Positions 83-32,619 of a stretch of 32,619 nucleotides of DNA are shown piece by piece. Both the position numbers and the translations under genes were made by a program. Positions within the stretch are counted from its first letter, which is position 1; every line of letters starts with the position of its first letter. Below the pieces are notes generated by a model, which was not told the DNA's origin, searched no databases, and worked only from the letters and a program-made list of their open reading frames with translations. Location of the stretch: NCBI GenBank assembly GCA_016203395.1, contig JACQMV010000049.1, positions 1 through 32,619 on the forward strand, written 5' to 3'. The stretch comes from Candidatus Woesearchaeota archaeon. GTDB taxonomy: Archaea > Nanobdellota > Nanobdellia > Woesearchaeales > ARS49.

Positions 83-1258
83 CTAATTCACCCTTCTGCC
101 AGATGAGTCCATGTTACCATACCAATGACCGGTCATTCCATCTACATTGGAAGGCGCACCTATTCTTCTACCAGATGAGTCCATGTCACCATACCAATGA
201 CCGGTCATCAACGGCATTTCCACTTCTTCAGAAGAAGGCATACACTGTTCATTTGGTGTGGCTAGTTGCACTTTCTTACGCCGCAATGGAGAAATAGTTA
301 TTGGCTTGTTCAAGTATGTTCGTATGCAATACGTACACACATCCTGCTGGCTCGCTTTCCTGCCACGTTCAAGAAAATCCATAAATCTCTCATTCTCTCG
401 CAGGATCTCTATTGGTTTGATAATTCCTTCTGGATCTTTCGTGTCAAACGTTATAGTGTGTATTTGCATGTGCATATCTGTAGGGCATGGCACCCTAAGC
501 ATGCCATCGGGTGTGACACGCACCATATAATGATTCTTTAAGTCAATTCCGCAAGGGCATTTTTTTGCTTTGCTTTTGTGCATTAAGATGTTATCTCTGC
601 CAGCATAAACAATTGGTCGCACAGCATATGCAATATAGTGTTTACTGTTTCTGCCAGCGTAATACTCGTCTGCAGTTGCAAACTGCGGCGTAAGTCCCTC
701 CTCCTCAAAGATAGCACAAACCTGTTCATGTATTTGCATCTCCTTTTCCTTTTTAATTATTAGTGTATGATGAGGCACGACTACGTTAACCTCATTCCTT
801 ATATTTTCTGCCATTGTTCTTAACGCGTTTTGCAATAGAACAGGCGAAGCATTAAATTCTGCATCATTGTGTGATGCATCAATGCCTATACATACTGTTT
901 CCAACCCGCTATCTTTGAGTCTGCGCCATAATTCAGCATCGCACTTATTTCCATTAGAATTTAATCTCGTTGTCATTCCATGAGAAGAAGCATACTTCAC
1001 TGCCTGAACCAAATGTGGCACGATAGTTGGTTCGCCTCCTGTAAACAAACAATACTTTATTCCATGAGCCACTGCTTGTTCCACAGCAGCCATTATGGTT
1101 TGCATATCCAACGCCCGCACTCTTCCTTTTGGGAAGTAAGAATTCGTGCAGCATGCAGGACATAGCGTATTGCAATCATATGTCATCTCGAGCACGATTC
1201 TTGGAACGCTGTTGCCTGTCAACTTATCACGAATACTTTCAGTCTCTTCTGCATCCAT
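83..1258 (-). CDS. Radical SAM protein with auxiliary Cys motifs and a C-terminal tandem-repeat tail
   Basis: CNTLCPACC (CxxxCxxC) motif, FTGGEPT, further Cys clusters (KKCPCG, VPCPTD, DVCTYC); C-terminus carries MTGHWYGxMDSSGRR twice. Confidence 0.85.
   Translation of the reverse strand: MDAEETESIRDKLTGNSVPRIVLEMTYDCNTLCPACCTNSYFPKGRVRALDMQTIMAAVEQAVAHGIKYCLFTGGEPTIVPHLVQAVKYASSHGMTTRLNSNGNKCDAELWRRLKDSGLETVCIGIDASHNDAEFNASPVLLQNALRTMAENIRNEVNVVVPHHTLIIKKEKEMQIHEQVCAIFEEEGLTPQFATADEYYAGRNSKHYIAYAVRPIVYAGRDNILMHKSKAKKCPCGIDLKNHYMVRVTPDGMLRVPCPTDMHMQIHTITFDTKDPEGIIKPIEILRENERFMDFLERGRKASQQDVCTYCIRTYLNKPITISPLRRKKVQLATPNEQCMPSSEEVEMPLMTGHWYGDMDSSGRRIGAPSNVDGMTGHWYGNMDSSGRRVN
99..208 (-). repeat. 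In-frame 72-nt-period direct repeat encoding MTGHWYG(D/N)MDSSGRR
   Basis: ccagatgagtccatgt(t/c)accataccaatgaccggtcat at 99-136 and 171-208. Confidence 0.95.
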
Positions 1259-9217: not shown

Positions 9218-9443
9218 CATTTGCCTTGCAGCTCTTGCTAATTCTTGTCTTAAATTAGGTCATAACCTATCAGCAGGTCATGTGCTCTGACTGTGGGTTT
9301 AACGCAATTAGCTGTTTTATTGACAGGAGCAATACAATTTGTTGCAGCCGGTTGCAAGCACAACGCAAGCAAAAGGTAAAGGCTTGGTGTGACAATAAAA
9401 CAAAATACATTCAAATTACCAGTCAAGCCACGAGAACTGAGAG
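9218..9443 (+). repeat. MITE-like repeat, copy 1 (subfamily with GGTTTAACGCAATTAGC)
   Basis: Extensive identity to copies at 15.1, 21.8, 28.4 and 32.4 kb. Confidence 0.85.
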
Positions 9444-15085: not shown

Positions 15086-15299
15086 ATTTGCCCCACAACC
15101 CTTGCTGAGTCCTATCTTAAATGAGGTTATAACTTATCAGCAGCTCATGCGCTCTGACTGTGAACTTTAATGTGCTCAACTGTTTATTTGTCTTGAGAAA
15201 TACTATTTGTTGCAGCCGGTTGCGAGCGCATTGTAATGGCTTGGTGTGGCAACAAAACAAAATACCTTCAAACTACTCATCAAGCCACAAGGGCTGTGG
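15086..15299 (+). repeat. MITE-like repeat, copy 2
   Basis: Ends CCACAACCCTTG (15093-15104) and CAAGGGCTGTGG (15288-15299); core shared with other copies. Confidence 0.87.
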
Positions 15300-15326
15300 A
15301 AAAATAACAACCTCTTCTTTGATATG

Positions 15327-21800: not shown

Positions 21801-21810
21801 ACTACGTTTC

Positions 21811-22034
21811 TGCAGCACTTGTGGCTTGGCTCATGATTTGAACGTATCTTTTCTTGTCGTCACACCAAGCCCTTACCATGTGCTTGCGTTGTGTTTGCAA
21901 CAGGGTGCAACAAATTGTATTGCTCTTGTCAATAAAACTGCTAATTGCGTTAAAGTTCACAGTCAAAGCACAAGCGCTGCTGATAAATAATAATCTAATT
22001 TAAGATAAGAACTAGCAAGATTAATAAATAATGC
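21811..22034 (-). repeat. MITE-like repeat, copy 3 (same subfamily as copy 1)
   Basis: RC shares tttaacgcaattagc(a/t)gttttattgaca with copy 1 and ttgttgcaccctgttgcaaacacaacgcaagcacatggtaagggcttggtgtgac with copies 4 and 6. Confidence 0.87.
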
Positions 22035-24796: not shown

Positions 24797-25006
24797 TCAC
24801 GAGCGATGACAGCCGTGATACTCTGAAATAGCATTTGCAGTGCTTACAGCGTGCAAATCATTCAAAACAGAATGTTTCTGAACAGCAACCTCTACATCAG
24901 CAAACATTCCACGCTGATCAGCAACAACAAAACACTCCAGCGAATACACACCTAAAACACTACATTTATTCCCACACACGTTTTCTGCTACATTTTCCAA
25001 CCGCAT
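24797..25006 (-). CDS. Third small ORF of the RiPP-like operon (69 aa, Cys-containing)
   Basis: MRLENVAENVCGNKCSVLGVYSLECFVVADQRG...YHGCHRS; preceded by TAGGAGGTGATGAAAATG. Confidence 0.65.
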   Translation of the reverse strand: MRLENVAENVCGNKCSVLGVYSLECFVVADQRGMFADVEVAVQKHSVLNDLHAVSTANAISEYHGCHRS

Positions 25007-25018
25007 TTTCATCACCTC

Positions 25019-25324
25019 CTAACTATAGTCAGGACAGGGAGTTTCATGACATGGCGCACCAGGACGACTTACACGGCGAGAAACATAATTCCCGCAAGGA
25101 TGTGCAACACAATCGCACAATCTCCCTTTTTTGCTTTTATCTTTTTTGCCTTCGCAACTGCAGTTATCATAACACCTGCAAATATAGTCACACTTACAAT
25201 GAGAATTGCAACTACGGAAAGTCCTATCCTCATCCAAAGAACGCTTCCCACCAAGAGGAATAACAACAAACACACTAACACCAGACTCACCAATGCCAAT
25301 ATCAATATCCTCAAGCAGTAACAT
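25019..25324 (-). CDS. Putative RiPP precursor A (101 aa, about 12 Cys)
   Basis: MLLLEDIDIGIGESGVSVFVVIPLGGKRSLDEDRTFRSCNSHCKCDYICRCYDNCSCEG...CPDYS; SD GGAGGTGAAAGGAATG. Confidence 0.72.
   Translation of the reverse strand: MLLLEDIDIGIGESGVSVFVVIPLGGKRSLDEDRTFRSCNSHCKCDYICRCYDNCSCEGKKDKSKKGRLCDCVAHPCGNYVSRRVSRPGAPCHETPCPDYS
25190..25316 (-). repeat. Leader-coding direct repeat (precursor A copy)
   Basis: 127 nt aligned to 25484-25610 with two differences. Confidence 0.95.
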
Positions 25325-25336
25325 TCCTTTCACCTC

Positions 25337-25630
25337 CTAACGATAATCCGGACAGCAATGACGAGTACAAATACAAGCGCAAACTTCAGAACAATAGTCA
25401 CTACACGTATCACTAACGCAATAACACCCTTTCTCCTTTTTGCTATTGCAATCACACGTTCCATGATCCTTACAAATAGGATTACACTTACAATGAGAAT
25501 TGCACCTACGGAAAGTCCTATCCTCATCCAAAGAACGCTTCCCACCAAGAGGAATAACAGCAAACACACTAACACCAGACTCACCAATGCCAATATCAAT
25601 ATCCTCAAGCCGTAAGTTGTTTGTTGTCAT
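25337..25630 (-). CDS. Putative RiPP precursor B (97 aa, about 15 Cys)
   Basis: MTTNNLRLEDIDIGIGESGVSVFAVIPLGGKRSLDEDRTFRRCNSHCKCNPICKDHGTCDCNSKKEKGCYCVSDTCSDYCSEVCACICTRHCCPDYR; overlaps the rSAM 3' end. Confidence 0.72.
   Translation of the reverse strand: MTTNNLRLEDIDIGIGESGVSVFAVIPLGGKRSLDEDRTFRRCNSHCKCNPICKDHGTCDCNSKKEKGCYCVSDTCSDYCSEVCACICTRHCCPDYR
25484..25610 (-). repeat. Leader-coding direct repeat (precursor B copy)
   Basis: 127 nt aligned to 25190-25316 with two differences. Confidence 0.95.
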
Positions 25631-26972
25631 GATTGCGCCTACTTGCAAGCAATTTAATCTCATAAACCATCAAATCTTGGTTTATGCCACAACGCTTGTT
25701 GTTGCGAGTATCATAAAGCCCTCCTGAAGCAGAATACACTTTAGCAAGGCAATCACCAGCGCACGTAAATTTAGCAATACAGTCAGCACAATAAGGCATT
25801 TTGTCAATAGTTCGCTCGCTCAAACGAGCTATCTTTTCCTTATCAAACACAAAACCGTCATTAGCATCATATGTTCCAATGAAAAAAACATTTGAACGAG
25901 GATCACTCTTCCTGCAAACCTCCAAACATGAGGTTACATCACCTGTAGGAACAACAAAAAAGTTTCTTCCAACAGCCCCACAAAAGGCAGTTGTAAACTC
26001 ATGCAGACGACAGGCAGAATAATCAACACCTACACCGAGTTCCTCTCCCACCTTACGCGCTTCAATAGCATACTTTACAAAATCACTACTACTAGGAGCT
26101 TTTGCACCAGTAGTAAAACAACGCCCTGTCTCTGCCAACGGCTCCAAATGAAAGCTCTTATTAGAAGAAATTTGTTTGAAAAATCTTACAATATCAGACA
26201 TGTAAAATACAGACTCCCGAGTTATTGTCGCTCTAAGACCATAATCCTTCTTATGCTCCTCAAGATACTTAACAGTTCTCACCACAGCATCAAAAGACGG
26301 CTGGCCTCCTGCTTTTGGTCGTTGAGTGTTTTGTATTACCTCAGGCCCATCAAGAGAAATATTCAGGTGACCAATATTCTCAGCAACCCACTCAAGAGTT
26401 TCCTGACTAAAAACACCATTAGTAGCACTATTAACCTGTCCTTTCAGTTCATGCTTTGCACACGCGTCTCTAAAATAAGCAACAGACATCTTAACAATAG
26501 GGAGAACGCACGCAAGAAGCGGCTCGCCACCACCATGAAAACCCAAAGAAGCATGCTTTGTTTTTAACTTGACAGCATTGTTGATAACCAAATCTATTGC
26601 TGCTTTCGCAACATTCCATTCTAAATCTTTCTCTGCATCTAAGCCCGCATTTGCATAACAATAAACACAACGCAAATTACACTTATAAGTTGGCATGAGT
26701 GTTACGCTAGTGGGCAAATATTCTCTTTTTCGCCCATTCTCACAAGTAGAAGAAGGAGTTTTCTTTTCCTCGTCAAGAATCCCGCACTCAACTAATGGCT
26801 GCAACTGAGGGTGCGTTTCAGAATCAACACCCTCTCTTGCAGCAGACTTTAACGCAGAAACAGTTGCAGAATTAACTTCTGCAACGCACCTGTTCAGAGG
26901 AGCATACAAAAGAAAAGAACCATTTTCAGTTGGCAGAACAAACAATTCTTTAACTGGCTTCAGTTTTGCCAT
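25605..26972 (-). CDS. Radical SAM/SPASM peptide maturase-like protein
   Basis: YKCNLRCVYCYANAG (CxxxCxxC), GFHGGGEPLL, SPASM-like C...CLEVC...YCADCIAKFTCAGDCLAKVY...CGINQ; N-terminal FLLYAPLNRCVAEVN segment. Confidence 0.9.
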   Translation of the reverse strand: MAKLKPVKELFVLPTENGSFLLYAPLNRCVAEVNSATVSALKSAAREGVDSETHPQLQPLVECGILDEEKKTPSSTCENGRKREYLPTSVTLMPTYKCNLRCVYCYANAGLDAEKDLEWNVAKAAIDLVINNAVKLKTKHASLGFHGGGEPLLACVLPIVKMSVAYFRDACAKHELKGQVNSATNGVFSQETLEWVAENIGHLNISLDGPEVIQNTQRPKAGGQPSFDAVVRTVKYLEEHKKDYGLRATITRESVFYMSDIVRFFKQISSNKSFHLEPLAETGRCFTTGAKAPSSSDFVKYAIEARKVGEELGVGVDYSACRLHEFTTAFCGAVGRNFFVVPTGDVTSCLEVCRKSDPRSNVFFIGTYDANDGFVFDKEKIARLSERTIDKMPYCADCIAKFTCAGDCLAKVYSASGGLYDTRNNKRCGINQDLMVYEIKLLASRRNHDNKQLTA

Positions 26973-26993
26973 AACAAGAGTATATTTGAAAGT

Positions 26994-27006
26994 AAGATTT
27001 ATATGT
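26994..27006. promoter_or_regulatory. Shared/bidirectional TATA-like element (agatttatatgtt)
   Basis: Lies about 25 bp from the rSAM ATG (26972) and about 25-30 bp from the TrmB-like ATG (27031). Confidence 0.55.
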
Positions 27007-27030
27007 TGGTGGTCGCTTTATGCGACTACT

Positions 27031-28284
27031 ATGAACTCTTTAGGGCTTACAAGCACTGAACAAAAGATTTTCACTGAAATACTTGCAAGAGGAGAAATCT
27101 CACTAGGAGAAATAATAAAGCATTTAGGACTGCACAAAGGAACAGTTTACAACAGCATAAGAAGATTACAGGCAAAGGGCTTTGTTGCATTCAGCGAAGG
27201 CGCGAATTGCAAAATTTATTCTATCAACCGACTCGCACTCAAAAACCTCCTTGATTCAGAACAAAAAAAACACAATGAAACAGTAAAAAACATTCAGGAA
27301 TTGCTACGAACGACAGCACAAATAAAACAGGACTCTGCAACAGTGCAGGTATTAACAGGAACAGAAGGATTCAAAACATTCTTCAACGACCTATACCGAT
27401 GGGGGGCAAACACAAAAAAAGAGTATTTGTTCATGGGAAAAGGCAATGAGATGATAGACTACCTTGGAATGAATTACTACAAAAAAACACAGATTATAAA
27501 GAAAAAACTCGGAGTGCAGTGCAGAGTAATTCTGAACGAAACATCAAGAATCCAACCAGTAAGCAAGTATGTTGTCGGAAATGTGAGATATATGAAAATG
27601 GACTACAAAAGCCCTGAAAGCACATGGATATACGACAGCAAAGTTGTCATAGTGCTCTGGGACTCAAAACCAATATACACAATAATAATCAGCAGTGATG
27701 GATTAGTGAAGAGCTACACAAGCTATTTTGAAAGAATGTGGCTTGATTCAGAAGGCGCAATAATAAAACTAGAATCATTCCACAAAGTAAACGTGAGCGA
27801 ACATGTTGAAAAAATGCAAAAATCATTTGAAGTATGCGGAATCAACTGCCTAATTCCAGTCCACGAAGGAAGAGCAAACATTATCCGCCTTTTGACAGAA
27901 AACGGAAAAGCAAGAATACTTATGGCAGATCCTAAAGGGAAAACCTTCAAAACAAGAATACGGCTAGAAGAAAGAAATATTAAGTCAATGAGCAAAAGCA
28001 GAATACTATACGAATGGAAATCAGTCATAGCAAACCTTAAAGACATTCAGACCATCACTGGAAAAAAAATAGAAATAAGAACATACAAAGAACCGATTGA
28101 CAGACGCATAATGATCATAGACGACAACAAATTCTTTTATTCAGAATACAGCAACACCCCTGCAAAATACGGAAGCTCAGAACCGCACCTGTTTATAGAC
28201 AAATCACTAAACCAAAAAGGCGCACTAGCAATACGCAAAAGATTTGAAGAATTATGGAAAAAAGCAACACCACTGCAAATATAA
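27031..28284 (+). CDS. TrmB-like transcriptional regulator
   Basis: MNSLGLTSTEQKIFTEILARGEISLGEIIKHLGLHKGTVYNSIRRLQAKGFVAFSEG N-terminal wHTH plus long sensor-like C-terminus; internal Met start preferred. Confidence 0.75.
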   Translation: MNSLGLTSTEQKIFTEILARGEISLGEIIKHLGLHKGTVYNSIRRLQAKGFVAFSEGANCKIYSINRLALKNLLDSEQKKHNETVKNIQELLRTTAQIKQDSATVQVLTGTEGFKTFFNDLYRWGANTKKEYLFMGKGNEMIDYLGMNYYKKTQIIKKKLGVQCRVILNETSRIQPVSKYVVGNVRYMKMDYKSPESTWIYDSKVVIVLWDSKPIYTIIISSDGLVKSYTSYFERMWLDSEGAIIKLESFHKVNVSEHVEKMQKSFEVCGINCLIPVHEGRANIIRLLTENGKARILMADPKGKTFKTRIRLEERNIKSMSKSRILYEWKSVIANLKDIQTITGKKIEIRTYKEPIDRRIMIIDDNKFFYSEYSNTPAKYGSSEPHLFIDKSLNQKGALAIRKRFEELWKKATPLQI

Positions 28285-28365: not shown

Positions 28366-28374
28366 GTTGTTTTT

Positions 28375-28555
28375 CTACAGCCATTGTGACTTGATGAGTA
28401 GTTTAAATGTATCTTGTTTTGTTGTCACACCAAGCCCTTACCATGTGCTTGCGTTGTGTTTGCAACAGGGTGCAACAAATTGTATTGCTCAAGACAAATA
28501 AACAGTTGAGCACATTAAAGTTCACAGTCAGAGCACAAGGGCTGTGGGGCAAATG
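28375..28555 (-). repeat. MITE-like repeat, copy 4 (short form lacking a 45-bp 5' segment)
   Basis: Identity to copies 3 and 6; CAAGGGCTGTGGGGCAAATG end. Confidence 0.87.
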
Positions 28556-32331: not shown

Positions 32332-32417
32332 TATTGCCAAACGGTTCTTATGCTCTGACTGTGAACTTTAATGTGATCAACTGTTTATTTGTCATGAGCA
32401 ATACCATTTGTTGCACC
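32332..32417 (+). repeat. MITE-like repeat, partial copy 5 (short form)
   Basis: tgctctgactgtgaactttaatgtgatcaactgtttatttgtcatgagcaatac(c)atttgttgcacc. Confidence 0.8.
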
Positions 32418-32443: not shown

Positions 32444-32619
32444 CATTTTTCCCATAGCCCTTGCTAATTCTTATCTTAAATGGGGTTATAATTTATCAGC
32501 AGCCCTTGTGCTCTTACTGTGAACTTTAATGTGCTCAACTGTTTATTTGTCTTGAGCAATACAATTTGTTGCACCCTGTTGCAAACACAACGCAAGCACA
32601 TGGTAAGGGCTTGGTGTGA
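32444..32619 (+). repeat. MITE-like repeat, copy 6 (truncated by window end)
   Basis: cccatagcccttgctaattcttatc...ttgcaccctgttgcaaacacaacgcaagcacatggtaagggcttggtgtga. Confidence 0.88.

Follow-up and report, generated by a model that had tools for sequence, protein, structure and literature searches.

Cysteine-rich small proteins beside a radical SAM/SPASM maturase in a DPANN archaeon: a probable new family of ranthipeptide-like RiPPs

What does a radical SAM (rSAM) enzyme act upon when its gene is followed by small open reading frames (ORFs) rich in cysteine? The question is raised by a stretch of 32,619 nucleotides from a Candidatus Woesearchaeota archaeon (hereafter the window, that is, the whole stretch analyzed), in which the original prediction had placed a RiPP locus with leader and core organization at positions 24797-28284. 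Radical SAM RiPP clusters have already been counted in archaea, including DPANN, and few archaeal products are known (PMC12144867). We estimate a probability of roughly 0.78 that this operon encodes a new RiPP family, ranthipeptide-like in its action, with ORFs A and B, and perhaps C, as the precursors. The genome (about 0.9 Mb; 884 kb, 88.6% complete) encodes one such enzyme.

The operon occupies positions 24797-26972 of the minus strand and runs from the enzyme gene (455 aa, 25605-26972) through ORF A (97 aa, 25337-25630) and its paralogue ORF B (101 aa, 25019-25324) to the predicted third small ORF, here ORF C (69 aa, four cysteines, 24797-25006). This part of the predicted range stands as a peptide operon, and the remainder lies outside it, being occupied by a divergent gene for a TrmB-family regulator on the plus strand (27031-28284; Pfam TrmB, 4.5e-10). 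The end of the enzyme gene and ORF A overlap by 26 nt. As read from the sequence, ORFs B and C are each preceded by the Shine-Dalgarno sequence TAGGAGGTGA (25333-25338 and 25015-25020, minus strand), which overlaps the stop of the preceding ORF and stands 8 nt from the ATG both times. The start codons of A and B are ATG 25630 and ATG 25324, respectively; the lengths of 108 and 104 aa in the ORF list come from in-frame starts farther upstream. The start of ORF C (ATG 25006) was chosen by Shine-Dalgarno spacing, and a T-run lies downstream of its stop. The leader resemblance of ORF C was non-significant, and its role as a precursor is uncertain. Between the regulator and enzyme genes, an imperfect palindrome (TGGTCGC-TTTAT-GCGACTA, 27010-27028) adjoins the TATA-like TTTATATG and is a candidate operator, with the TrmB-family protein as a possible regulator of the peptide operon. 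A TrmB-family regulator is also found near a precursor in the related archaeal locus L015 (8233-8988).

The enzyme is a radical SAM/SPASM peptide maturase (Pfam Radical_SAM, 6.8e-10), and both cysteine motifs originally noted in it were borne out by the homologue alignment. The CxxxCxxC cluster motif (C98-x3-C102-x2-C105; 26658-26681, minus strand) and the seven cysteines of the SPASM region (C331, C349, C395, C398, C404, C408 and C428; 25689-25982, minus strand) are invariant across 17 homologues. An extra cysteine, C285 in the sequence GRC (26118-26120, minus strand), is shared by all nine of the closest homologues and missing from the enzymes that stand beside larger Cys-tailed proteins (see below). 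The AF2 model of the enzyme (pLDDT 88.7) opens with three strands and two helices, which is the order of an RRE; this RRE-like domain (residues ~1-65; 26778-26972, minus strand) has the same strand-strand-strand-helix-helix order in two models and the alignment with CteB is full length, while Pfam PqqD gave no match to the enzyme at E <=1. CteB is the best solved match both by sequence (5wgg, 3e-21) and by full-length fold (5why, 8e-22, TM 0.72/0.78), and anSME, ChlB, SkfB and SuiB are among the other fold matches. The enzyme scores under the cut-off of every NCBIfam model. SCIFF, nif11-type and PapB maturases scored highest, with the same picture for four relatives, and several cyclophane and sulfatase models matched weakly. 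Among the NCBIfam models, none for a defined non-RiPP rSAM family fits the enzyme; membership of such a family had been named in the original prediction as contrary evidence. Docking was approached by folding a continuous L114 protein in which the stops separating enzyme from peptide were read through; the leader came out disordered (pLDDT <50) and received no confident placement.

ORFs A and B, with an overall identity of 65%, have the Cys counts, the conserved N-terminal half and the Cys-rich C-terminal half that had been described for them, that is, a predicted leader (25505-25630 in A, 25211-25324 in B) and core (25340-25504 with 15 cysteines per 55 residues in A, 25022-25210 with 12 per 63 in B). 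A conserved leader joined to a diverged core was seen in three independent paralogue pairs from separate lineages. At the DNA level, leaders are 94-97% identical (111/114 in window A/B, 107/111 in L115 b/e and 107/114 in L021 a/b), whereas core alignments contain many gaps and agree at 68-71% of the aligned bases (112/164, 57/81 and 58/84, respectively). In the window pair conservation returns (88%) at the C-terminal CPDY[R/S] and the junction, and the variation is thus confined inside the core. Across loci, leaders open with a loose xRLE[D/S/N] motif and frequently close with RTF. A held-out leader profile ranked only win_A, L117, L115b and L115e first or second and missed L116 and L118, and we therefore call leader homology across loci loose.

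Related loci were gathered by the enzyme alone, and 20 of them were tested for neighbouring small ORFs. In 12 of the 20, a small CxC-rich ORF was detected on the strand of the enzyme and no more than 400 nt away, compared with a background of 10 small CxC-rich ORFs over both strands of 132.6 kb of distant flanking sequence. Outside the WD40-associated branch the pairing amounts to 12/14, the split into 14 and 6 loci having been made post hoc. The eight loci lacking a paired ORF comprise archaeal L010 and L011, where the neighbouring small ORF has five to six cysteines but a single CxC, and six from the branch beside larger Cys-tailed proteins. One archaeal locus, L115 (8908-10191), carries five precursors in tandem for one enzyme, their leaders being related and their cores different. 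In the tree, the window enzyme groups with those of L114, L115 and L015 (support 88/96; one row of this group is very long and doubtful). The enzymes that neighbour Cys-tailed proteins fall into a supported branch of their own. Few further enzymes came from searches of the order (where L007 and L017 carry the same proteins), phylum and class, which makes the distribution patchy; 378 genomes of the class yielded no new members. When 377 genomes were queried with a precursor profile, every match below E 1e-10 sat in an enzyme-bearing genome. Among the same 377 genomes, those free of the enzyme held no significant precursor relative, and the orphan leader homologues that had been proposed as counter-evidence were therefore not seen. 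Weak matches in enzyme-free genomes (E >0.003) were short Cys stretches in unrelated loci. A viral carrier was also considered and dropped, because viral contigs held only eight distant relatives (<=31% identity).

Because relatives show the same enzyme-peptide pairing, the small ORFs are very probably substrates of the rSAM enzyme. The reading of the locus as a leader-plus-core RiPP operon has thus been strengthened by the pairing in distant lineages, the three leader/core pairs, the CteB-like model and the 377-genome search. As regards maturation and export, no C39 peptidase/transporter was found in the 88.6%-complete genome, and a reading of the ORF lists of the flanks, rather than full annotation, brought up no dedicated or common gene for a protease, transporter or exporter.

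In the bacterial branch, the neighbours of the enzyme in L018, L020, L024, L025 and L027 (hosts in Acidobacteriota, Armatimonadota and Chloroflexota) are proteins ending in Cys-rich tails such as CTCDQICTC or PCGxPxPxGAxCxCNC, with WD40 repeats confirmed by Pfam in L020 only. These proteins resemble the window peptides in their CTC[N/D] motifs and even Cys lags. They differ in having a large carrier instead of a small leader peptide and in the separate, supported branch of their enzymes.

Next we analyzed how cysteines are spaced within the cores. In the pooled cores, Cys pairs were enriched at lag 2 (55 observed versus 31.5 expected) and lag 6 (58 versus 28.3), and depleted at lag 1 (CC, 4 versus 32.7) and lag 3 (CxxC, 3 versus 30.8). 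Specifically, 33 of 54 CxC sites were followed by D, N or E (12.7 expected, z 7, 0/1000 shuffles), although these residues are absent after ~40% of the sites and the shuffles overstate independence somewhat because of paralogues among the cores. With one peptide per locus the count was 18/34 versus 7.9 expected, and D/N/E at other placements near Cys showed no clear enrichment. Since the rule was derived from the pooled cores themselves, the held-out bacterial tails weigh more: they showed CxC[D/N/E] at 10 of 26 sites (1.9 expected, 0/2000 shuffles; fewer than six independent cases, as the tails are mutually related) and zero odd Cys lags from 1 to 7. In the held-out small ORFs of L009 and L022, which are acidic and have few sites, the figure was a non-significant 5/7 versus 3.9. 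The combination of evenly spaced cysteines and a CxC[D/N/E] unit matches no described family that we found.

The closest known systems share some of these features. SCIFF ranthipeptides (CteA/CteB, TIGR03974) likewise combine an rSAM/SPASM enzyme bearing an N-terminal RRE-type domain (predicted in the window enzyme) with a small Cys-rich precursor, but the window enzyme scores 110.9 against a cut-off of 425, SCIFF has six cysteines per ~45 residues whereas the window peptides have 12-15 in CxC-type units, and, unlike in SCIFF, there are several precursors per operon. The model of PapB, the maturase of the freyrasin precursor PapA (NF047865), matches all 17 homologues, and acidic residues lie near Cys in both systems; however, the window enzyme scores 106.8 against 340, and the CX3D spacing of PapA is not enriched in the window-type cores (CX3D/E, 8/52 versus 12.6 expected). 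The NxxC ranthipeptide of Streptococcus (PMC8326336) is alike in having Asn three residues from Cys, yet here D/N/E comes three residues after the first Cys, and [D/N/E]xxC outside CxC contexts occurs at its expected frequency (14/54 versus 13.9). Periodic Cys targets and related maturases are also known from the CefB Cys-every-fifth (NF038107) and CXXX-repeat (TIGR04115) systems; with cut-offs of 600 and 350, the two models give the window enzyme 85.1 and 70.5, respectively, and Cys spacing in the window-type cores alternates between 2 and 4 (period often 6) instead of 5 in CefB and 4 in CXXX-repeat peptides. As the family features tested for SCIFF and PapB were lacking, membership of either is not claimed; the peptide family most likely works like these two systems.

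By this analogy, the predicted N-terminal RRE of the enzyme would bind the leader (38-42 residues in A and B, and perhaps present in C), which bears the loose xRLE[D/S/N] start, a hydrophobic stretch after it and frequently the RTF end. The SPASM clusters would then hold a substrate Cys in the core while the 5'-deoxyadenosyl radical abstracts a hydrogen from a nearby residue, giving a thioether that would most likely link the first Cys of CxC[D/N/E] to the Asp, Asn or Glu three residues on. Such thioethers would be those of ranthipeptides with a different spacing. Asp, Asn, Glu and Thr are all among the acceptors used in ranthipeptides (PMC8326336, PMC9413430), and PapB tolerates Cys-Xn-Asp with n from 0 to 6 (PMC9413430). 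We consider the chances of a Cys-to-D/N/E thioether, by extension from CteB and PapB, to be about even. A RiPP made by other rSAM chemistry on or near Cys (the alpha-carbon thioether of sactipeptides, conversion of Cys to formylglycine, epimerisation or C-C crosslinks) is a reasonable possibility that we hold somewhat short of probable. The fold matches to anSME, ChlB, SkfB and SuiB and the weak cyclophane and sulfatase matches speak for it, but CteB is well ahead of these by fold and sequence score, and the D/N/E preference behind CxC suits acceptors of non-alpha thioethers. For formylglycine in particular, the enzyme scores only 77.3 against the cut-off of 349.45 for the sulfatase maturase TIGR03942, and no CxPxR motif was read in the peptides.

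The other rivals dispute that A and B are modified, or that they are genes. Metallothioneins contain CxC, and this, together with the very high Cys content of A and B, would suit Cys-rich metal-binding (metallothionein-like) or redox proteins, with the rSAM enzyme serving something else or only assisting. However, CxxC and CC pairs are usual in metal sites, and the near-absence of CxxC argues against ordinary sites of this kind, as does the rarity of CC. A and B are also without a Pfam, NCBIfam or PDB match, and the adjacency of the enzyme and the leader/core pattern would be left unexplained. The metal-binding alternative that accompanied the original prediction is therefore weakened by the depletion of lags 1 and 3, and we judge it unlikely. 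Far less probable still is that A and B are not the true genes and that the hydrophobic frames overlapping them, at 25330-25608 and 25069-25314 (minus strand), are. These ORFs are long and the +1 frame outscores the Cys-rich frame in codon statistics, which did not mark A and B as coding and were uninformative for the small ORFs. On the other hand, the spacing of the AGGAGG upstream of ORF B suits the ATG of its Cys-rich frame, and other lineages have Cys-rich ORFs with leader-like N termini beside the enzyme.

A bolder reading, which we hold less likely than not, is a RiPP class of its own with a CxC[D/N/E] crosslinking unit as its hallmark. It would occur in DPANN archaea as well as in bacteria of several phyla, and both small leader peptides and tails of larger (WD40) proteins would bear the unit, whose two cysteines may both take part in a new ring topology. 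No description of this peptide family was found in the open-access papers searched. In a DPANN archaeon whose genome measures about 0.9 Mb, the locus offers a compact, expressible putative enzyme-substrate pair with a testable target motif, and the hypervariable cores hint that the products may act in interactions with other cells.

Two further features of the window were observed. A dispersed repeat of ~173 nt is matched at 53 places of the 884-kb genome, with 76-100% identity. On the plus strand, two of its copies (21807-21979 and 28372-28544) flank the polymerase/RiPP segment, and further copies lie on the minus strand at 9281-9431, 15141-15302, 32347-32417 and 32500-32619. A second radical SAM protein (83-1258, minus strand) has a duplicated C-terminal tail, MTGHWYG[D/N]MDSSGRR, which is possibly a fused or repeated target.
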